The position numbers and the translations under genes are program-made. This document shows positions 14,170 through 25,912 of a stretch of DNA of 35,121 nt, piece after piece. Position 1 is the stretch's first letter, and each line of letters starts with the position of its first letter. The DNA is from Parafrankia elaeagni (lineage in GTDB: Bacteria > Actinomycetota > Actinomycetes > Frankiales > Frankiaceae), in the NCBI RefSeq assembly GCF_000374165.1, contig NZ_KB893758.1, positions 1-35,121 on the forward strand, written 5' to 3'. The notes beneath the pieces are model-generated. The model saw only the letters and a program-made list of their open reading frames with translations. It was not told the DNA's origin and ran no database searches.

Positions 14170-14247
14170 ATGAACAGTTCCGACGACGCCGGATGTAGTT
14201 CCGGCCGACCCACGCGTAGGGAAGCGCCCGCGGGGGTCGATCGGTGA
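14170..14247 (+). CDS. Possible 25-codon leader ORF overlapping the first CNNM gene
   Basis: ATG at 14170 is preceded by GGAAGGG with a four-base gap, a better ribosome binding site than that of the downstream gene. The frame encodes 25 residues (MNSSDDAGCSSGRPTRREAP and five more) and its TGA (14245-14247) overlaps the GTG start of the CNNM gene as GTGA. That geometry is typical of translational coupling. The peptide has no recognised similarity, so if real its role is probably regulatory. It could be chance. Confidence 0.4.
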   Translation: MNSSDDAGCSSGRPTRREAPAGVDR

Positions 14248-15896
14248 CAGAGGCGCTTCTACTGCTCCTGGGTCTTCTGCTGGTCGCCACCTGCGGCATC
14301 TTCGTGGCGGCGGAGTTCGCGTTCGTGACGGTCGACCGGCCCACGGTCGAGCGGGCTGCCGCCGGCGGGGACAAAGCCGCCGCCGGGGTCCTGAGCGGGC
14401 TGCGAACCCTCTCCACCCAGCTCTCCGGGGCACAGCTCGGCATCACCGTCACCAACCTGGCCATCGGTTTCCTCGCCGAGCCGGCCATCGCGGACCTCAT
14501 CGAGGGGCCGATCATCGACCTGGGCGCGTCCCGGGGTGTGGCCGGTGGTCTCTCGGTGGCACTGGCCCTCGTCCTCGCGACCGGCTTCACGATGCTTTAC
14601 GGGGAGCTCGTCCCGAAGAATCTCGCGATCGCGAAGCCACTGGGCACGGCACGGGCCGTCCAACGCCCGCAGCGCCTGTTCACCCGGGTCACCGGGCCGG
14701 CGATCCGCTCGCTGAACAGCACGGCGAACTCGCTGCTGCGGCGGGTCAACATCGAGCCGCAGGAGGAGCTCGCGTCGGCGCGGTCGCCCCAGGAGCTGTT
14801 CTCGCTGCTCGGGCGGTCAGCCGAGCACGGCACCCTGCCGCGGGAGACCGCGACGCTCATGCAACGTTCCCTGACCTTCGGTGACCGTGTCGCCGAGGAT
14901 GTCATGACCCCGCGGATGCGCATGCAGTCGATCGACGCGAACGCCCCGGTCGCCGAGGTGATCAGAGCGGTCCGGCGCACCGGCCACGCCCGGTTCCCGG
15001 TCATCGGGGACGGCAGCGACGACGTCGTCGGGCTCGTCCACGTCAAGCATGCGGTGAGCGTTCCCGAGGAGGCGCGTGACAGCACGGCGGTGCACAGCGT
15101 GATGGTGCCCGCGGCCACGGTGCCGTCCTCGATGGCGCTCGAGCCACTGCTGGAGACCCTCCGTTCGGGCGGTCTGCAGATGGCCATCGTCGTCGACGAG
15201 TTCGGCGGTACGGACGGGCTGGTCACCGCGGAGGACCTGATCGAGGAGATCGTCGGCGACGTCATCGACGAGCACGACCGGGTCAGCCCTCGTGCCCTGC
15301 GCCGCCGGGACGGCAGCTGGCTGCTGTCCGGCCTGCTGCGGCCCGAGGAGGCCAGCGAGGTCACCGGCCTGCCCATCCCCGGCGACGACGCCTACCAGAC
15401 CCTGGGCGGGCTGATGTCGAGCATGCTGGGGCGCATCCCGCGCGTGGGCGACACGACCACGGTGGACGGCATCCGTTACGAGGTCGAGCGGATGGACGGC
15501 CGGCGGGTCGACCGCGTCCGGCTCGCGGACGGGACCGGGACGGCGCCGGGAGGCGGAGAGCTCCCCGCACAGGGCCCCGACGCCGAGGGCGCCGAGGGCG
15601 CCGGCTCCACTTCCCCGGGCACACCACCGGGCGGGGCCGACGCACCGGCGTCCGACGGCGTACGGCCCACGACGGACGCACCGGCGGCGGGCACCGCGCC
15701 CGCGGCCGACCACACGCCCACCGTGCCCACCGCGCCCACCGCGCCCACCGCGGGCAGCGCACCGGTGGCCGGCGGCGACGACGCGCGGGCGGGCGAAGGA
15801 GCACCGCGCCCGGCCGACGGCGACGCGGCCGACGGCGACGCGGCCGACGGCGACGCGGGCGCGGTGCACGCCGGCACCCGCGGAGCGCGCCGATGA
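14244..15896 (+). CDS. CNNM/CorC-HlyC-type membrane protein with CBS pair and long disordered tail
   Basis: 550 residues from GTG at 14244. The N-terminal DUF21/CNNM membrane domain (about 1-200) has ALLLLLGLLLVATCGIFVAAEFAFVTV, the LSGAQLGITVTNLAIGFLAEPA helix and the MLYGELVPKNLAIAKP motif. A CBS pair follows (about 215-340; VAEDVMTPR..., MAIVVDEFGGTDGLVTAEDLIEEIVGDVIDE). Then comes a CorC-associated domain (about 350-425; LLSGLLRPEEASEVTGLPIPGDDAYQTLGGLM). The last about 125 residues are Ala/Pro/Gly/Asp-rich with in-frame tandem repeats, probably disordered cytoplasmic tail. Family knowledge: CNNM/CorC proteins are linked to Mg2+ (and Co2+) efflux; older annotation as hemolysin is misleading. 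Its stop overlaps the next gene's ATG by four bases, so the two form an operon. Confidence 0.93.
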   Translation: MTEALLLLLGLLLVATCGIFVAAEFAFVTVDRPTVERAAAGGDKAAAGVLSGLRTLSTQLSGAQLGITVTNLAIGFLAEPAIADLIEGPIIDLGASRGVAGGLSVALALVLATGFTMLYGELVPKNLAIAKPLGTARAVQRPQRLFTRVTGPAIRSLNSTANSLLRRVNIEPQEELASARSPQELFSLLGRSAEHGTLPRETATLMQRSLTFGDRVAEDVMTPRMRMQSIDANAPVAEVIRAVRRTGHARFPVIGDGSDDVVGLVHVKHAVSVPEEARDSTAVHSVMVPAATVPSSMALEPLLETLRSGGLQMAIVVDEFGGTDGLVTAEDLIEEIVGDVIDEHDRVSPRALRRRDGSWLLSGLLRPEEASEVTGLPIPGDDAYQTLGGLMSSMLGRIPRVGDTTTVDGIRYEVERMDGRRVDRVRLADGTGTAPGGGELPAQGPDAEGAEGAGSTSPGTPPGGADAPASDGVRPTTDAPAAGTAPAADHTPTVPTAPTAPTAGSAPVAGGDDARAGEGAPRPADGDAADGDAADGDAGAVHAGTRGARR

Positions 15897-16939
15897 GCGA
15901 CCTCCTGGCGCTGGCCATCACCGTCCTGCTGCTGGCGGGCAACGCCTTCTTCGTCGGGGCGGAGTTCGCCCTCATCTCCGCGCGCCGCGACACCATCGAG
16001 CCGCGCGCGGAGGCCGGTTCCCGCGCGGCCAAGGTGACCCTGCACGCGATGGAGAACGTGTCGCTGATGCTGGCGGGCGCGCAGCTCGGCATCACCATCT
16101 GCACGCTCGGCCTCGGCGCGCTCAGCGAGCCCGCCATCGCGCACCTGCTGGAGGGCCCGTTCGAGGCGGTCGGACTGCCGTCCTCGCTGCGCCACCCGAT
16201 CGCGTTCGCCATCGCGCTCAGTCTGGTGACGTACCTGCATGTGGTGATCGGCGAGATGGTGCCGAAGAACCTCGCCCTGGCGCTGCCGGACCGGGCGGTC
16301 CTGTTCCTCACTCCGCTGCTGGTCGCCGTCGTCCGGGTGGTGAAGCCGGTGATCTCGATCCTGAACCTGATCGCGAACCTCACGTTGCGGGCGGTGCGGG
16401 TCGAGCCGAAGGACGAGGTGACCAACGTCTACACGCGGGACGAGGTGGCCGGGCTGATCGAGGAGTCGCACCGGGAGGGCCTGCTCGCCGCGGACGAGCG
16501 CGACCTGCTCAACGGTGCGCTGTCGTTCGACGAGCGCACCGCGCGCAGTGTCCTGCTGCGCCCGGACGGGCTGGTCACCGTGCCGCCCACCATCACCCCC
16601 CGGGAGGTGGAGCAGCTCGCCGCCGAGACGGGGTTCACCCGGTTCCCCGTCCGCGGGGAGGGCGACGACCTCGTCGGCTACCTGCATCTCAAGGACGTCC
16701 TGGAGAACCGGGAGGACCGGCGGTCCGCACCGGTGGCCGCCAAGTGGATCCGGCCGCTGGTCCGGGTGGGGGCGGACGACAGCCTGCGCACCGCGCTGGC
16801 GACGATCCAGCGCTCGGGCTCGCACCTGGCGCGCCTGTCGGACCCGTCCGGACGCATCCTCGGCCTGGTGGCTCTGGAGGACATCCTGGAGGAGCTGGTG
16901 GGTGAGATCCGCGACGAGTCGACCCGCCACCACGCCTGA
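15893..16939 (+). CDS. Second CNNM/CorC-type membrane protein with CBS pair
   Basis: 348 residues; ATG at 15893 overlaps the upstream TGA (ATGA). It shares the layout of its neighbour: ALAITVLLLAGNAFFVGAEFALISARRD, MLAGAQLGITICTLGLGALSEPA, YLHVVIGEMVPKNLALALP, then CBS repeats (RSVLLRPDGLVTVPP, TRFPVRGEGDDLVGYLHLKDVLE and LGLVALEDILEELVGEIRDE). It ends right after the second CBS repeat, so it lacks the CorC-associated domain and the tail. The pair arrangement (a long and a short paralogue) is common in actinobacteria. I infer that they act together, perhaps as a heteromer, in divalent cation transport. A terminator follows. Confidence 0.93.
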   Translation: MSDLLALAITVLLLAGNAFFVGAEFALISARRDTIEPRAEAGSRAAKVTLHAMENVSLMLAGAQLGITICTLGLGALSEPAIAHLLEGPFEAVGLPSSLRHPIAFAIALSLVTYLHVVIGEMVPKNLALALPDRAVLFLTPLLVAVVRVVKPVISILNLIANLTLRAVRVEPKDEVTNVYTRDEVAGLIEESHREGLLAADERDLLNGALSFDERTARSVLLRPDGLVTVPPTITPREVEQLAAETGFTRFPVRGEGDDLVGYLHLKDVLENREDRRSAPVAAKWIRPLVRVGADDSLRTALATIQRSGSHLARLSDPSGRILGLVALEDILEELVGEIRDESTRHHA

Positions 16940-17039: not shown

Positions 17040-18338
17040 CTAGCGGACGGTCTCTCCGCACAGGGCCATCGGCATCTGGACCTGGAAGGAGTCCCCGCCC
17101 TGGGACACCCGCACCATGCTGACGCAGGCCTTCGGCGCGGACTTGTCCGCGAGGTTCACCCCGCTGGGCAGCAGCCCGTCCGCGGCGTAGTCGCGCACGG
17201 CCCGCAGGCCGGCGATGTAGCCGGCCCGGGTCGGGCAGGGGCCGGCCTCGTCCAGGCCGCGCAGGAACAGATCGGCGGTCATCCAGCCGACCAGGCCGGT
17301 GGTCTGCTCGGGCTGTTCGATCTGGGGCGCGTAGCGGGCCATCGCCTCGAGGTAGCGGCGGTGCGCCGGGGTGCCCGCCTCGAACGGCACGAAGTCGACC
17401 AGGAAGAAGCTGCCGGCGAGCTCGGGCCGGGGCTTCGTCAGCAGGACGGGGTCGTAGCCGATCGGCTGCATGGCCACCTTGATCGTCGCGCCGGCCTGGC
17501 GCGCCGCGGCGAGCACGTCGGTGAAGGCCCGGACCGGCACCACTCCGGTGATCATGTCGGCGCCGGCGGCCTGGACGCGGGCGGCCGCAGCGCCCAGGTC
17601 GAAGCCTGCCGGCGTCCAGTCGATCGTGTCGACGACCTCGACCGAGCCGGCGCGCAGGCTGCGACCGAGGCGCTCGGCGATCTGCCCGGAGGCCGGGATC
17701 ACCTCGGTACGCAGGATCACCGCGCGGGTGGCACCGTGGGAACGGCCGAACGCGCCGAAGACCGAGGTGCCGAGGTCGCCGCCGAGCACGTTCGAGTAGC
17801 CGAAGGTGTTCTCCCCGCCGGCGGTCAGGTCCTGGCCGATGGTCGGGACACCCCGCTCGGCCAGATAACTGGCGGCATCGGCCGCGATGCCGCTGGTGCC
17901 GACGATCGCGAACGAGTGCGAGTGGTCCACCAGCATGCGCGCGGCGAGCAGGGCGCCGTCCGGAGTCGACTCGTCGTCGCGCCAGTCGTAGTGGACCTGC
18001 CGCCCGTGGATGCCGCCGGCCGCGTTCGCCGCGCCCAGCCGGGAGTCGACGCCGGCCCGGAACGCCCGGGAGACCCCCGCCCCGGACCCGGTGTCCGGGT
18101 AGAGCGCGCCGAAGCGGACCTCCGACGGCGTCACACCCTCCTCGGCGGCGCAGGTCGGTGCGGGCTGGGCCGCCGAACTGTCGGCCGCGGAGTCCCCCAC
18201 GCATCCGCTGACCAGGAGCGCGAGGGCCGCCCCCAGCGCCACCACGACGCCGGCCGGCCGGCGCGAGGCGGGTAGGCCGCGCCCGCCGGCGCCGCTGCCG
18301 CCGCGGTCCGGCGAAGCGGGGGGCGCTCCGGGGGTCAT
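17040..18338 (-). CDS. Branched-chain amino acid-type ABC substrate-binding lipoprotein
   Basis: 432 residues from ATG at 18338, with AGGAGA upstream; a longer frame to 18422 lacks a ribosome binding site. A lipoprotein signal is clear: RRPAGVVVALGAALALLVSGC with lipobox LVSGC and lipidated Cys46. The mature protein has the Leu/Ile/Val-binding fold: VRFGALYPDTGSGAGVSRAFRAGVDSRLGAANAAGGIHGRQV, DDESTPDGALLAARMLVD, FAIVGTSGIAADAA, GYSNVLGGD and YIAGLRAVRDY. It would sit outside the membrane and hand a small solute to an ABC transporter. No permease or ATPase gene is adjacent, so it is an orphan component here and the ligand is unknown. A good promoter lies about 95 bases upstream. Confidence 0.9.
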   Translation of the reverse strand: MTPGAPPASPDRGGSGAGGRGLPASRRPAGVVVALGAALALLVSGCVGDSAADSSAAQPAPTCAAEEGVTPSEVRFGALYPDTGSGAGVSRAFRAGVDSRLGAANAAGGIHGRQVHYDWRDDESTPDGALLAARMLVDHSHSFAIVGTSGIAADAASYLAERGVPTIGQDLTAGGENTFGYSNVLGGDLGTSVFGAFGRSHGATRAVILRTEVIPASGQIAERLGRSLRAGSVEVVDTIDWTPAGFDLGAAAARVQAAGADMITGVVPVRAFTDVLAAARQAGATIKVAMQPIGYDPVLLTKPRPELAGSFFLVDFVPFEAGTPAHRRYLEAMARYAPQIEQPEQTTGLVGWMTADLFLRGLDEAGPCPTRAGYIAGLRAVRDYAADGLLPSGVNLADKSAPKACVSMVRVSQGGDSFQVQMPMALCGETVR

Positions 18339-18431
18339 CGGCGTCTCCTGATGTCCGGGCACCGCGGCGCGGCGCTCACAAGCCTCCTGCGGACCGGGCC
18401 CAGCCCTGCAGCTTAAGGACAAAAAGGACTA

Positions 18432-19810: not shown

Positions 19811-22477
19811 GTGACCGGGTATACGCCACCACCGGTGTCCGGCAACACCGCGCGACCGCTGCGTGCGGAGGACCCCGTCCAGCTCGGCGCCTACCGCGTC
19901 GTGGGCCGCCTCGGCCAGGGCGGGATGGGTGCGGTCTTCCTCGGTCAGGCGCCGGACGGCACCGCGGTCGCCATCAAGGTCATCCGGCCTGAGCTGGCGT
20001 CCCGCCCGGAGTTCCGGGCCCGGTTCGCCCGGGAGGCCGAAAGCGCGCGCCGGGTGCGGCGGTTCACCACCGCGGCCGTCCTCGACGCCGATCCTGACGG
20101 CCCCCAGCCGTATCTGGTGACGGAGTTCGTCGAGGGCCCGACATTGTCTCGGCATATCTCGGCCCGCGGGCCGATGCGCCCCGCCGATCTCGAACAGCTC
20201 GCGGTCAGCGTCGCCACCGCGCTGTCGGCGATCCACGCGGCCGGTATCGTCCACCGGGATCTCACCCCGGCGAACGTCCTGCTTTCCCCGGTCGGCCCGA
20301 AGGTGATCGATTTCGGGCTCGCCCGGGAATACGACACCGTCAGCGACCTGTCCCGCAACGTGAAGCAGGCGATCGGCACCCCCGGGTACATGTCGCCGGA
20401 ACAGATTCTCGATCAGCCGATCACCGCCGCGGTCGACATCTTCGCCTGGGGCTCGATCATGATCTTCGCGGCGACCGGGCAGCCGCCGTTCGGGCAGGGC
20501 CGGGTGGAGGCCGTCCTCTACCGCATCGTGAACGAGCAGCCCCGGCTGGACGGCGTGACCGGCGAGCTGCGGGAACTCGTCGAGCTGGCGATGCGCAAGG
20601 AGTTCGCGACCCGTCCGACCGCCGAGGAGCTGCGCGCGGCCCTGATCGGCGGCGTGCCGATCCCCGACCGGGCAGCGGGCCCGGCGGCTGCCGAAGGTGC
20701 CGAGAGCACGGGTGGCGCCAGCCCGGGACGCGGGCGCCGGTGGTCGCTGGGCGGCCGCAGGGCCGCGGCGGCAGCGCCCTCGTCCACCGCCGCCGGTGTG
20801 GCCGGAGCAGCCGGAGTCGCCGGAGCAGCCGGAGTCGCCGGAGCGGCCGATGGCGGTTCAGTTGCGCCGCTCTCCCCCGCCCCGCAGGCGCACCCGGCCC
20901 CGCCTTCACCGGTCTCCCGGGCTGGCACTCCGCCGCCCTCGGCGGCATCCTTCCCCTCGCTCCCCTCGTTCCCCTCCGTCCCGCCGTCGCAGGTTCCGCC
21001 GGTGTCCCGGCCGCCGGCACCCCCCCATCCGGGTGTATCGCCGTACTCGCCCGCGCCCCAGACCTCATGGGCACCGCAGCACTCGCCAGCACCGCAGCAC
21101 TCGCCAGCACCGCAGCACTCGTCGGCGCCCGGGGTTTCCGGTGCCTCCGGCGGTAGCCGGGGCGGGCCGGAGCAGCCGCCTCCGGACGCCGCCGGCCGCC
21201 ACCGGACCGGCCGAACGGTCGCCCTGGCCGGCTTCGCGGCGGCACTGGCGGCGGCCGTCGCCATCCCGCTGCTCACCCTCGGCGGCGACGACACCCCGTC
21301 GAGCGCCGACCGGGCGGCCATCGCGGACCGGCTCGCCGACGAGGCGGCGGGCAGCCGCGCCACCGATCCGGCCCTGGCCGCGCGGCTGAGTCTCGCGGCC
21401 TACCGCATCGCGCCGGCCGGCACCGCCCGGGATGCGCTGATCGCCTCGTTCGGCGCGAGCACCGCGACGCGGACACCGGCGGCGGGCAGCCCCGCCCGGG
21501 ATGTCGCGTTCAGCCCGGCCGGCCCGGTGCTCGCCACGGCCGGGCCGGACGGTGTCCTGCGGCTCTACCGGCTGGCCGACGGCGCCGAGCCGACGCTGCT
21601 CAGCGAGCAGCCGACCGAGGACCCGGCCGTGGCCCTCGCCTTCGACGAGGACGGTGACCGGCTGGCCGTCAGCGGCACCGCGGACCCGGCGCGGCTGTGG
21701 GACGTCCGCGACCCGGCGCGCCCGCAGCGACTGGCCGTGCTGGCCGGGCTGGGCACGCCGCTCCAGGTGGCGCTGTCCGCGGACGGCACACTGCTCGCCG
21801 CGGCGACCGACGACGGTACGTTCGCCCTCTGGCGGCTCACCGACCCGGCCACGCCCGACCCGCCGCGGCTGCAGCGCACCATGTCCGTCCGGACGGACAT
21901 GGCGCTGAGCCCCGCCGGCGACCTGCTCGCGGTGGCGGGCATCGGCGGCGAGGTCCAGCTCTGGAACATCACCGACCCGGAGCGCCCGGTCCGCGCCGGG
22001 GTCGCCAGCGGTGCGCTGGGCGCGGTCAACGCGGTCGCCTTCAGCGCCGACGGGAAGCGCCTGGCCACCGGCGGCGACGACCGGACCGTTCGGGTCTGGG
22101 ATGTCGGCAACCCCCGGGAGAGCCGTGTCACCGCCGAGCTGACGGGGCACGACACGCCTGTCACCGCGGTCGCGTTCGGCGCGGCCGGCCAGATCGTGAG
22201 CGGTGACCAGGCCGGTGTCGTCACCTACTGGAGCGGCTCCGGGCCGGCCGCGATGGCACGGGTCGACGATGTCGGCAGCTCGGTCCTGGCCCTGGCGGTC
22301 GACCAGGCCGGTGACCGGCTGGCGACGACCACCGAGGACGGCCGAACCACGGTGTGGTCGGTCAACCCCGATCGGCTCACCGCCGCCGCCTGCGCGGACC
22401 CGGCGGCGCGGATCAGCCGGGACGAGTGGGACGAGCGCATTCCGGAGCTCCCGTACACCGATCCCTGCCGCGTCTGA
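19811..22477 (+). CDS. Receptor Ser/Thr protein kinase with extracellular WD40-type propeller
   Basis: 888 residues from GTG at 19811, AGGAG about nine bases upstream. Kinase domain about 27-285: GRLGQGGMGAVFLG, Lys56 in VAIKVI, catalytic Asp150 in IVHRDLTPANVLL (Thr where Lys is usual), Asp167 in DFGLAR, and GTPGYMSPEQ. A Pro/Ala/Ser-rich juxtamembrane linker (about 290-460) contains DNA-level tandem repeats (GVAGAA, near 20806-20850; APQHS, near 21070-21121). One membrane span follows, about 470-490 (VALAGFAAALAAAVAIPLLTL). The C-terminal about 330 residues hold WD40-like blades such as AVAFSADGKRLATGGDDRTVRVWDV, predicted outside the cell. Family knowledge: M. tuberculosis PknD has the same plan with a beta-propeller sensor. 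It is tail-to-tail with the Hsp70-PstS fusion gene. Confidence 0.93.
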   Translation: MTGYTPPPVSGNTARPLRAEDPVQLGAYRVVGRLGQGGMGAVFLGQAPDGTAVAIKVIRPELASRPEFRARFAREAESARRVRRFTTAAVLDADPDGPQPYLVTEFVEGPTLSRHISARGPMRPADLEQLAVSVATALSAIHAAGIVHRDLTPANVLLSPVGPKVIDFGLAREYDTVSDLSRNVKQAIGTPGYMSPEQILDQPITAAVDIFAWGSIMIFAATGQPPFGQGRVEAVLYRIVNEQPRLDGVTGELRELVELAMRKEFATRPTAEELRAALIGGVPIPDRAAGPAAAEGAESTGGASPGRGRRWSLGGRRAAAAAPSSTAAGVAGAAGVAGAAGVAGAADGGSVAPLSPAPQAHPAPPSPVSRAGTPPPSAASFPSLPSFPSVPPSQVPPVSRPPAPPHPGVSPYSPAPQTSWAPQHSPAPQHSPAPQHSSAPGVSGASGGSRGGPEQPPPDAAGRHRTGRTVALAGFAAALAAAVAIPLLTLGGDDTPSSADRAAIADRLADEAAGSRATDPALAARLSLAAYRIAPAGTARDALIASFGASTATRTPAAGSPARDVAFSPAGPVLATAGPDGVLRLYRLADGAEPTLLSEQPTEDPAVALAFDEDGDRLAVSGTADPARLWDVRDPARPQRLAVLAGLGTPLQVALSADGTLLAAATDDGTFALWRLTDPATPDPPRLQRTMSVRTDMALSPAGDLLAVAGIGGEVQLWNITDPERPVRAGVASGALGAVNAVAFSADGKRLATGGDDRTVRVWDVGNPRESRVTAELTGHDTPVTAVAFGAAGQIVSGDQAGVVTYWSGSGPAAMARVDDVGSSVLALAVDQAGDRLATTTEDGRTTVWSVNPDRLTAAACADPAARISRDEWDERIPELPYTDPCRV

Positions 22478-22676: not shown

Positions 22677-25358
22677 TCAGGCGGTGACGGCGGGTACGCC
22701 CTGGGTCAGCTCGTCGACGCGGGCGACGTTCTCGTTGATCGTGCTGTCGGCCCGTGGGACGTAGTGCGCGTCGAACGCGATGTCCTTGCCGTTCTCCATG
22801 TAGTAGCGCATGAAAGCGGCGGTGCCGGGCTCGCGCAGCGCGTCCTTGCGGGCGTAGACGAACACCGGCTTGCACAGTGGCAGGTAGTAGCCCGTTCCGG
22901 CGGTCACGGCGTTCGGCTCGACGCAGCCGTCACCGTTGTCGATCTCCAGGCCGCGCAGGCGCGGCCCGAACGTCTCGTAGGTCGGGAAGTCGAGGAAGCC
23001 CATCGCCAGGCGGTCGCCCGCCACGTCGTTCGCCACGCCGCTGAGGTCGGTCTCCTGATACTGGCGGGAGCGGTCGCTGGCATCGTTCACGGTGGCGTTG
23101 AACACCTGGGCCTGCACGGTGTCGCGCGACGGCCCGACGAAGGTGATCGGCTCGTCCGGGAAGGAGGAGTCGATGTCACTCCACCGGGTGACGCTCGAAC
23201 CGGCGTCCCAGATCTGACGGACCTGGTCGAGGGTCATGCACTGGGCCCAGGTGTTCTCCGGGTTCACCACGATCGGCAGGGTGTGGTGGGCGACCTCGAA
23301 GCCGACGATCTGGTCCGCGCACCCCACGTCCTGCGAGAAGCTGGGATCGAACTCGAAAGACGCACCGGCGACGTCGACGTCACCCGCGCACAGCTTCGCG
23401 AAACCGTCCTCGGTGGTCGAGGCGTTGACGCTGACCGTCACGTTCGGCTGTACCTGGCGGAAGCCGGCGTAGGCGGTCTCGCTGATCGGCGCGACCTCGG
23501 CGGAACCGGCGACCAGCACCGTGTTCGGCCCCCGGGTGGCCGGGACGGGCGCCGCGCTCGCCGGCGGCGCCTGCGTGACCCGCGGCGCGGCGACGGGCAG
23601 CACGCTGCTCGGCGACTCGTCGTCGTCGCCACCGGCCAGGACCAGGCCGAAGGTCGTGGCCGCGGCGACGAACACGACCGCGGCCGCCGCGGCGGCGACC
23701 GTCGTCCGTGACCAGCCGGCGAACGGGCCGCCACGGGCGGCCGACGACCGCCGCGCGGCCCTGCCCCCGGGGCCCCCGGGGCCCTCGGGACCCCCGGCAC
23801 CGGCGGCACCGGCGGCCGTGCTACCAGGCCCTGCGCCGGTCCAGGACGCCCCGGGGGGAACCGGCCCCGACCCGGTACCGGCACCGGTCGGGTGGCCACC
23901 CGACGGGGCGACGACCTCCATGCCGCCGAGCACCGTGGCCATGCTCGTGTCGTAGGCGCCGGCGGACGTCGCCGCCGGATCGCCGGACCCCCACGGATCT
24001 CCGGAGCTGCCCCCGGGAGTGCCCGCGCCGGCGGCCTGCCCGGAGCGGTCGCCACCGATCATCGTCGCGTCGGGATCGGATCCCTGGTCGACGGGCACCG
24101 GCCCGCTCGACGGATAGGACCCGGCCGGCGGGACGGACGTCACCGGCGGAAGCGAGAACACGGGCGGCACGGAACCCGCGGGCGGGTAGGCGCCCGGCTG
24201 CGACACCGGACCCCACGGCGGCACGGAGGAGGGTGCCGGCGCGTTGCCGGGCGGCCGGATGATCGAGGTGATGTCCTCGCCCGACGCGCGTTCGGCGAGC
24301 CCGGCGGCGATCAGCGCGGCGCCGGTGGCGATGTCGTCGTCCGAGCCGTACTGCCAGCGGCCGACGGCGGGGAACGCCGCCCGCATCTGGGCTCCGACCA
24401 GCGGCATCCGCGCGGTGCCGCCGTAGAGGATGACGGTCGACAGGTCGGCCGCGTCGGCCTGGCCGCTGCGCAGCGCCTGCCGGAACGCCCGCACCGTGTC
24501 CTCCACGACCGGGGCGACGAGCATCTCCAGGTCGGCCCGCCGCAGGGTGGCCGAGGTCCCCGCGACACCGGGAACCGCGAACGCGACCTCGACCTCGTCG
24601 TCCTCGGCGAGGTACTCCTTGGCCTGCGCGCACTCGGCCCGCAACCGGCCGAGCGCCACCGCGACAGCGGTGTCGGCGAGGTCGAGCCGGTCGCGGCTGC
24701 TGCCCGCCTGGGCCAGTACCCGGTCAACCAGCAGGTCGTCGATCGCGGTGCCGCCGGCGCGGCTGCCGGCCGGGGACCCGAGCTTGTCGAACCCGAAGGG
24801 GCTGAAGGACAGCACCGCCGTGTCGAGATGGCCGGCGCCGAAGTCGTAGAAGCCGACCAGGTCGACGGTCCGGGCCGATCGGCGGCTCAGCAGCAGCGTG
24901 CCGATCGCGTCCGCCGAGGCGCAGGTCGTGACGGGTGCGGAGACGTCCGACAGCTGGCTGACCGCCTCGGCGAACGCCTCGCGGCGGTGCTCGGGCCAGA
25001 AGGTCGGGTGCGCGATGACGATGTGGTCGGGCTCCTCGCCGCGGGCCGCGACGACCTGGCCGACCAGATGTCCGACGAGCCGGGCCAGCAGGCCCTCCGG
25101 GCTGTAGGCCGCGCCGCCGACCAGGGTGTGGCCGGTCTCCCCGACCCGGTGCAGGAAGCCGCTCGCGGCCCGGTCGGGGTCGGCGGTGGCCCGCCGTGCG
25201 GCGGACCGGCCGACCAGCACACCTCCCGTCGGGGGCATGTAGAGCACGGACGGGACCTCCCGCCCACCACCCACGGTGAGCACAGTGGGCCAGCCCCCGT
25301 CGGCGACCGCGAGAACCGTCGTCGCCGACCCGACATCGATACCTAGTTGGTAGCCCAC
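22677..25358 (-). CDS. Transmembrane fusion: Hsp70-type ATPase, linker, one span, PstS-like binding domain
   Basis: 893 residues from GTG at 25358 (GGAGG six bases upstream). Residues 1-365 are an Hsp70/actin-fold nucleotide-binding domain: GIDVGSATTVLAV, YDFGAGHLDTAVLSF and VILYGGTARMPLV are the two phosphate loops and the adenosine motif. No peptide-binding domain or EEVD tail follows. Residues 366-550 are Pro/Gly/Ser-rich with two similar ATMIGG/ATVLGG motifs. Residues 552-577 (VAAAAAAVVFVAAATTFGLVLAGG) form one membrane span. Residues 612-893 match phosphate-binding protein PstS: VAGSAEVAPISETAYAGF, TEDGFAKLCAGDVDVAGAS, MTLDQVRQIWDAG..VTRWSDID, ITFVGPSRDTVQAQVF. The ATPase would face the cytoplasm and the binding domain the outside. 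I infer a receptor or assembly factor coupled to phosphate or similar anion. It is one unbroken frame, so not an assembly of separate genes. Confidence 0.92.
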   Translation of the reverse strand: MGYQLGIDVGSATTVLAVADGGWPTVLTVGGGREVPSVLYMPPTGGVLVGRSAARRATADPDRAASGFLHRVGETGHTLVGGAAYSPEGLLARLVGHLVGQVVAARGEEPDHIVIAHPTFWPEHRREAFAEAVSQLSDVSAPVTTCASADAIGTLLLSRRSARTVDLVGFYDFGAGHLDTAVLSFSPFGFDKLGSPAGSRAGGTAIDDLLVDRVLAQAGSSRDRLDLADTAVAVALGRLRAECAQAKEYLAEDDEVEVAFAVPGVAGTSATLRRADLEMLVAPVVEDTVRAFRQALRSGQADAADLSTVILYGGTARMPLVGAQMRAAFPAVGRWQYGSDDDIATGAALIAAGLAERASGEDITSIIRPPGNAPAPSSVPPWGPVSQPGAYPPAGSVPPVFSLPPVTSVPPAGSYPSSGPVPVDQGSDPDATMIGGDRSGQAAGAGTPGGSSGDPWGSGDPAATSAGAYDTSMATVLGGMEVVAPSGGHPTGAGTGSGPVPPGASWTGAGPGSTAAGAAGAGGPEGPGGPGGRAARRSSAARGGPFAGWSRTTVAAAAAAVVFVAAATTFGLVLAGGDDDESPSSVLPVAAPRVTQAPPASAAPVPATRGPNTVLVAGSAEVAPISETAYAGFRQVQPNVTVSVNASTTEDGFAKLCAGDVDVAGASFEFDPSFSQDVGCADQIVGFEVAHHTLPIVVNPENTWAQCMTLDQVRQIWDAGSSVTRWSDIDSSFPDEPITFVGPSRDTVQAQVFNATVNDASDRSRQYQETDLSGVANDVAGDRLAMGFLDFPTYETFGPRLRGLEIDNGDGCVEPNAVTAGTGYYLPLCKPVFVYARKDALREPGTAAFMRYYMENGKDIAFDAHYVPRADSTINENVARVDELTQGVPAVTA

Positions 25359-25912
25359 TGGATCCTCCGGCTTTCATTCGTCCGCCGTCCGCCGTGGCTG
25401 ATGCGGACGGACGCCGCGTGGTCCCCCCGGTTCCCCTCGGTGCATCCGACGCCTTCGGCATCCGATCGGGTCGTTCACACAACGACGAAAGATCCGGCGG
25501 CCACATCGTAGGCCTTCCGACCAGGTGCGCCATATCCGGTAGCGGACATCCGTATCAGAAGGCGGACACCATCAGGATCCCCGCGCCCGACCGGCCACGC
25601 GGGCTCGGTGTATGTCGTCGGCCGGAAACGACGCCGGAGAAATGCCGCAGGCCGGCAGCGACACGATGAAGCAGAGACACGGCGCGGAGTACCGGGTGCC
25701 CAGCCGCGCCGATCAGTCCCGTTCGCGGCGATCAGGGTGCGCAAACGGGGTGCGTAAACGAAAAGACCTCCGTGTCGGCCCGGATCTTTTCCGTGTTCCG
25801 GCGCCGACCGGTGTCCGGATCGACATCAGCAAATGGGCGACGCTTCGACACACCTCGATACCCACATCCGACTTCCCACTCCCGCCCGCGACCACACGGG
25901 CACGGAAGGTGC
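25359..25912. other. 554-base spacer between meaB and the Hsp70-PstS gene
   Basis: No convincing gene on either strand; the open frames are short and Arg-rich. It includes a small GGCAC/GTGCC hairpin at 25899-25913 at the meaB stop, and a direct repeat GGTGCG-C/T-AAACG near 25736-25760. The Hsp70-PstS promoter should be within it. Confidence 0.5.

Follow-up and report, generated by a model that had tools for sequence, protein, structure and literature searches.

A stretch of 35,121 nucleotides from Parafrankia elaeagni (RefSeq contig NZ_KB893758.1, positions 1 to 35,121; hereafter, the window) encodes a protein in which an Hsp70-type nucleotide-binding domain (NBD), a linker, one predicted membrane span and a PstS-fold ectodomain are joined in a single reading frame. 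The fusion is conserved in its bacterial family, it has lost the canonical residues of both the ATP-hydrolyzing and the phosphate-binding site, its gene is linked to a Ser/Thr kinase gene, and its linker carries a conserved threonine. We tentatively favor the view that it acts as a receptor or co-receptor with a pseudo-ATPase head, which would bind a non-phosphate ligand and work with the adjoining kinase. The initial annotation of the window had envisaged an ATPase-based receptor for phosphate or another oxyanion.

The 893-residue frame at 22677–25358 reported in the initial annotation was confirmed, and its strand could be added: the plus strand is interrupted by stops over this interval, and the open frame lies on the minus strand. 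It begins with GTG at 25358, with GGAGG 5 bases upstream, and the N-terminal MGYQLGI is kept in most orthologs. In the same protein, Pfam detected HSP70 at 115 bits (cut-off 20.6) together with PBP_like_2 at 74.2 bits (cut-off 27). The proposed order of Pro/Gly linker, one span at 552–577 and PstS-type domain was borne out by hydropathy, Pfam and a structural model, with the ectodomain delimited here to 609–893. The full-protein model consisted of an ordered head (about 1–360), a stretch with predicted local distance difference test (pLDDT) values below 50 (about 360–606) and an ordered ectodomain. Its mean pLDDT of 65.5 and predicted template-modeling score of 0.45 do not fix the relative placing of these parts. 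Besides the strand, the initial annotation had missed a second genomic copy, the adjoining kinase gene and a wider set of Hsp70-headed actinomycete proteins.

To map the distribution, a profile of 15 ectodomains was searched on 394 genomes of the class, including 36 listed from the window's family (Frankiaceae). Matches above 410 bits occurred in 31 of these 36 genomes. Among the 358 non-Frankiaceae genomes, 49 had an ectodomain match, all at 257 bits or less, and in a second sample, comprising 396 genomes from the phylum, matches outside the window's own genome did not exceed 241 bits. Head and ectodomain share one frame in 27 of the 31 Frankiaceae genomes, which belong to several genera; the named relatives carrying the fusion are Parafrankia and Frankia, and the family consists mostly of plant-associated actinobacteria. 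The fusion is cut at contig ends in G229, G312 and G328, and the draft G296 has head and ectodomain in two frames of one contig. Neither a frameshift between two genes nor absence from close relatives, the two findings named beforehand as telling against a genuine fusion, was thus encountered, and the 27 single-frame copies rule out a frameshift or misassembly. The head profile matched none of the 24 long open frames (451–1132 aa) that carried non-Frankiaceae ectodomain matches in the two samples, and the fusion was not found in the 358 other genomes of the class, among whose ectodomain matches the long frames were checked. In the long frames inspected from this set, a lipoprotein-signal-like stretch precedes the ectodomain (read by eye), indicating free-standing proteins in over-extended frames. 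A Roseiflexus metagenome-assembled genome likewise carries a free-standing ectodomain. Among plasmids, 156 records matched part of the query, and no single place covered 80% of it.

A second form of the fusion (type B, as opposed to type A in the window) was present in eight genomes (G000, G002, G003, G005, G010, G168, G238 and G256), shortened in G003. There, the copy (L061:7038-8357, on G003:C2) is one open frame of 440 codons without much of the head and linker. The type B copy of the window's own genome (G000:C81:178000-195000; L058:7896-10439) has a more degenerate head and adjoins genes that, judged by eye, resemble those for cystathionine beta-synthase and gamma-lyase.

The head retains the Hsp70 fold, and the 50 highest-ranked fold matches of the full-protein model were all Hsp70 or DnaK structures. 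We aligned 80 NBDs, comprising 33 of the binding-protein (PBP) type, 5 of DnaK, 38 of other actinomycete members and 4 of further Hsp70 relatives from the window's own genome, and numbered the residues as in E. coli DnaK, in line with PMC12406271. Among the 33 PBP-type NBDs, E171, G197 and K70 are retained in none and T199 in two; the window protein itself lacks E171, T199 and K70. The other actinomycete heads keep E171, T199 and G197 in 34 of 38 cases each, and K70 in none. Much of the nucleotide cradle is preserved in the PBP type, namely D8 (30/33, one row lacking the stretch), D194 (31/33), G196 (33/33), K270 (29/33) and G341 (33/33), while the D201 position is Asp in 21 and Glu in 12. The claim that all three nucleotide motifs are present therefore holds for their outline and fails for their intact residues, as illustrated by YDFGAGHLD in place of the Hsp70 sequence FDLGGGTFD and by the missing equivalents of E171 and K70. 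According to PMC12406271, the γ-phosphate is sensed by T11 and K70, K70 is stabilized by E171, and the T199A mutation strongly lowers the ATPase activity and leaves allostery unharmed; PMC13012618 agrees on the role of T199. Loss of the hydrolysis residues together with retention of the cradle makes some nucleotide binding conceivable, and normal hydrolysis is not expected. On these residues, the head is probably not an ATPase, and an ATPase-driven receptor is unlikely. The predicted absence of a substrate-binding domain was upheld: the best Pfam stretch stops at profile position 377 of 599 and is followed by the linker, the span and the PBP domain. In phylogenetic trees in which several deep branches were weak or long, the PBP-type heads formed one group apart from DnaK in 98% of the bootstrap replicates.

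Conservation is strongest in the ectodomain, with a mean pairwise identity of 60.6% in 15 aligned fusions, as compared to 51.5% for the NBD and 36.7% for the linker. Modeled alone from 41 sequences, it reached a pLDDT of 90.3; its top structural match was 4jwo (template-modeling scores of 0.84/0.87), and the matches ranked 1–43 were all named phosphate-binding, PstS or DING proteins. The NCBIfam PstS model TIGR02136 scored 135.8 bits, under its cut-off of 206.6. We take the loop positions compared below to be the phosphate ligands, relying on the PstS literature and on how the sequence aligns with PstS structures such as 4jwo. In all 34 fusion ectodomains, the Thr of loop 1 is replaced by Glu, the Arg of ASRPI by Phe or Tyr, and SGT by (S/T)V(Q/H/P), with Val in place of Gly. 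Most fusions also gained an acidic residue in loop 2 (position 4: Glu in 20, Asp in 8; position 5: Asp in 27). Phosphate-type residues occupy all these positions in 7/7 free-standing relatives. Some ligand positions are partly kept in the fusions, namely the second Ser of loop 1 (16/34) and the Ser of loop 3 (22/34). The replacement in 34/34 fusions and in none of the 7 free relatives marks a fixed change and not drift. In our reading, the pocket has exchanged phosphate for a different ligand; the new ligand is perhaps an amine or another cation, which is a guess from the residue chemistry.

Hydropathy (about 552–578), a model helix (554–569) and the flanking charges agree on the single span. 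The 25 residues before it contain five Lys/Arg and no Asp/Glu, and the 25 after it one Lys/Arg and four Asp/Glu; across the 15 aligned fusions, 3–6 Lys/Arg precede the span and 0–2 follow it. These charges predict an N-in/C-out orientation, with the head inside and the ectodomain outside. Cys 657, 680, 707, 812 and 829 of the ectodomain are invariant in 15/15 aligned fusions. Together with hydropathy and charges, they support the receptor-like layout suggested in the initial annotation, i.e., a predicted cytoplasmic N-terminal domain and an outer binding-protein domain on one span.

The 3′ end of the fusion gene adjoins a gene for a Ser/Thr kinase with WD40 repeats, in which a span between the two parts was read by eye. 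The neighborhood was testable in 29 of the 31 fusion genomes, since the contig ends first in G296 and G328. In 27 of these 29, the kinase, or at least its WD40 end, was found within 3 kb of the type A gene, with a gap of 0.06–0.51 kb (measured between matches) in 20. The two genes are convergent in 20 genomes and in tandem in 7 (genus g6). G129 and G178 have no kinase near type A, and relatives of the kinase lie elsewhere in these genomes. In G010, G168, G238 and G256, type B is the gene immediately upstream of this kinase. As a control, none of 20 loci (16–19 kb) around other Hsp70-headed members, whose heads all keep E171 and T199, had a kinase match at E 1e-12; one, L210, gave a WD40 match, weak at 88 bits. 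The window's own genome contains 66 kinase-profile matches in 7.6 Mb. Two Frankiaceae genomes devoid of the fusion have a kinase-domain match alone (G012, 205 bits) and a 314-bit match running to the contig end (G265), so that these two do not support co-absence of kinase and fusion.

The linker is variable, and its initial threonine is invariant in the 15 aligned fusions. The pattern T[VSAM][VILM][VILMF]?[GRE], derived from the surrounding motif, occurs 29 times in the 15 fusion linkers, as compared to a mean of 2.29 and a maximum of 8 in 500 shuffles, and in 1 of 22 linkers of other Hsp70-headed members (first 170 residues past the head). The motif recalls the ETTS phospho-motif of GarA, a substrate of actinobacterial Ser/Thr kinases, as described in PMC12321487.

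These findings suggest a possible mechanism. Outside the cell, a PstS-derived binding protein would capture in its converted pocket a ligand other than phosphate, perhaps an amine-bearing or cationic one. Inside, the Hsp70-fold head might bind nucleotide without hydrolysis and serve as a docking or scaffolding switch. Ligand binding would alter the association between the fusion and the adjoining receptor-type kinase, which would phosphorylate the conserved linker threonine beside the head. The phosphorylated linker, or the head, could then recruit a downstream partner.

Several observations weigh against this mechanism. Receptor function is deduced from sequence, neighborhood and models, and a gene neighborhood is not an interaction. 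As the neighborhood is inherited, the 27 genomes do not count as independent cases. In 7 of them the gap is 2.3–2.8 kb (L055, L170, L172, L175, L178, L181 and L182), and in 8 the WD40 end stands alone on the contig (L051, L169, L172, L174, L175, L178, L181 and L182), the kinase domain being seen in 19. Four of the 8 type B copies, those of the window's genus, are not near any kinase match. Regarding the head, K70 is absent from all 38 other members too, the D201 position is still acidic and two fusion NBDs keep T199; the first two points make weak hydrolysis possible. The ligand class was guessed from residue chemistry, and the pocket could be empty. Finally, the threonine pattern was defined after the motif had been seen, and the shuffle test ignores common ancestry; the linker sequences being related, the pattern is support and not proof.

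An envelope scaffold is the rival that we take most seriously, although we consider it unlikely; an actin-like scaffold had been the alternative offered in the initial annotation. The dead Hsp70 head would give other proteins an actin-like surface for docking, and the ectodomain would serve in adhesion, either free of ligand or bound to the wall, with no ligand signaling. The lost catalytic residues and the lectin or propeller ectodomains on other members fit this picture. So do MreB/Mbl profile matches with E values of up to 0.05, seen in 19 of the 20 related heads scanned; these indicate no more than a common actin-like fold. However, the pocket replacements are fixed and not freely drifting, which argues for a ligand, and a static scaffold has no need of a kinase link. 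A membrane-tethered working Hsp70, i.e., a chaperone or foldase that acts at the translocon and is anchored outside by the binding protein, is improbable. It would account for the fold and the motif outline, and most related heads do keep the catalytic set (E171 in 34/38), but the protein has no substrate-binding domain and its own group has lost E171, G197 and K70 throughout and T199 in 31 of 33.

A receptor or scavenger of phosphate or another oxyanion, as first proposed, is highly improbable. The PstS fold, the top match to 4jwo and the further phosphate-binding proteins among the matches speak for it, but the loop residues and the Arg are replaced and a Glu is added in 34/34 fusions, and the free relatives retain the phosphate set; inspection of the translations by eye, with no family search made, recognized no pstCAB beside the fusion in the window. 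We reject this reading on the ligand residues: the fusion is probably not a phosphate receptor. We give next to no weight to a non-functional chance fusion or an assembly error. The split copy in the G296 draft and the type B copy L061 without its middle could be cited in its favor, but it is refuted by conservation: the protein occurs in 31 of 36 family genomes, with 27 single-frame copies, and the ectodomains of 15 copies from several genera are 60.6% identical on average. Our preferred, if tentative, reading remains that of a receptor or co-receptor with a pseudo-ATPase head, which would bind a ligand other than phosphate and act together with the kinase.

Table 1. Features of the fusion locus in the window, and outer parts of other Hsp70-headed proteins.
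Feature	Position	Strand	Basis or detail
Hsp70-PBP fusion gene (type A)	22677..25358	-	893 codons, one frame, GTG start
GGAGG, ribosome-binding-like site	25364..25368	-	read from sequence
Hsp70-type NBD, residues 1-360	24279..25358	-	Pfam, residue tables, DnaK fold match
Head substitutions	residues 1-360	-	A54 for K70, S148 for E171, A175 for G197, H177 for T199
Head residues retained	residues 1-360	-	D172 for D194, D179 for D201
Thr364, motif TSIIRPP / TVVLGP, linker start	24267..24269	-	invariant in 15/15 aligned fusions
Low-complexity Pro/Gly/Ser linker, residues 361-551	23706..24278	-	mean pairwise identity 36.7%, pLDDT <50
Single predicted membrane span, residues 552-577	23628..23705	-	hydropathy, model helix, charges
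PstS-fold ectodomain, residues 609-893	22680..23534	-	Pfam PF12849, model, structure match
Former phosphate loop 1, GSAE (GSST in free-standing relatives)	23496..23507	-	alignment
Former phosphate loop 2, TTEDG (GTGGG in relatives)	23403..23417	-	alignment
Phe668, replacing Arg of ASRPI	23355..23357	-	alignment
Former phosphate loop 3, TVQ (SGT in relatives)	23112..23120	-	alignment
Ser/Thr protein kinase with C-terminal WD40 repeats	19811..22477	+	Pkinase 138.6 bits, WD40 101.2 bits
L120 outer part			Vgb-lyase propeller, 72.1 bits, cut-off 50
L140 outer part			PQQ propeller, 42.1 bits, cut-off 27.6
L145 outer part			ricin-B lectin, 38.9 bits, cut-off 25.6
L149 outer part			weak BNR, below cut-off
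L007 outer part			short tail

The head is not confined to this fusion. When the head profile was run on 296 genomes of the class, 52 gave matches at E 1e-45, with ordinary DnaK among these matches; many of the members retrieved consist of a head, a linker, one predicted span and varied outer parts (Table 1). The predicted spans vary, with none in L141 and L142 and several in L155, and degenerate heads outside the PBP type were seen in L131, L139, L143 and L144. L145, L120, L140 and L149 keep E171 and T199 and have one predicted span each. A further protein of the window's own genome (L008:265-2733, on G000:C81), in which WD40-like repeats identified by eye follow the Hsp70 domain, has no predicted span. 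A broader proposal, possible but advanced here with clear reserve, is that actinomycetes have a class of one-span receptors with an Hsp70-type head and exchangeable ectodomains (binding protein, lectin, propellers). In Frankiaceae, the pseudo-ATPase head would be both a substrate and an adaptor of the WD40 receptor kinase, and the converted PstS pocket would sense a new, perhaps cationic, ligand.

As regards the remaining gene surroundings, MeaB and methylmalonyl-CoA mutase are near the fusion in many loci and were unmatched in the stretches L051, L057, L171 and L183. In G168, two more frames, apparently secreted (by eye), lie between type A and the kinase (L170:8631-10323). In the window, a gene for a Peripla_BP_6 substrate-binding protein (17040-18422) is two genes from the kinase, and two adjoining genes at 14244-16939 encode CNNM/CBS-domain membrane proteins.

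The initial annotation knew of no described system with this architecture, and we found no description in the open literature either, judging from titles and abstract starts, with subscription journals mostly outside this scope. To our knowledge, an Hsp70-type head in single-span receptors with a binding-protein ectodomain has no precedent. If our reading is correct, the inner half of transmembrane receptors in bacteria would be built on the Hsp70 fold as well as on kinase domains, and the Hsp70 heads would include a pseudo-enzyme branch comparable to the pseudokinases. A phosphate-binding protein would also have come to bind a different ligand, in a group with nitrogen-fixing plant symbionts among its members, and its original and altered states could be compared directly. 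The absence of the two canonical sites leads to directly testable predictions.

Among the closest known systems, the other actinomycete Hsp70-headed proteins share the NBD, linker, one predicted span and outer part, and their NBDs lie with those of the PBP type on one side of the tree. They differ in their mostly intact catalytic motifs, their different outer parts and the lack of a kinase match in the 20 loci. With Hsp70/DnaK (PF00012) the fusion shares the N-terminal actin-fold NBD and, in outline, the phosphate-1, phosphate-2 and adenosine motifs; it departs from them in having no substrate-binding domain, in the loss of E171, G197, K70 and mostly T199, and in the attached span and ectodomain. 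PstS-type proteins (PF12849, 4jwo) have the fold of the ectodomain in common, and the window's ectodomain is 27–37% identical to seven free-standing relatives. However, the phosphate ligand residues of the fusion are replaced, and its ectodomain is the C-terminal domain of a membrane-anchored protein; judged by eye, the ectodomain has neither a lipobox nor its own signal peptide. The ETTS motif of GarA/OdhI resembles EDITSIIRPP of the fusion in look, which is a likeness of short motifs only, and Pfam found no FHA domain in the fusion protein. Actinobacterial receptor Ser/Thr kinases (PknB-like) combine an inner N-terminal domain of catalytic fold, a linker, one span and a modular ectodomain. 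The fusion has the same layout, except that its inner domain has the Hsp70 fold instead of a kinase fold.

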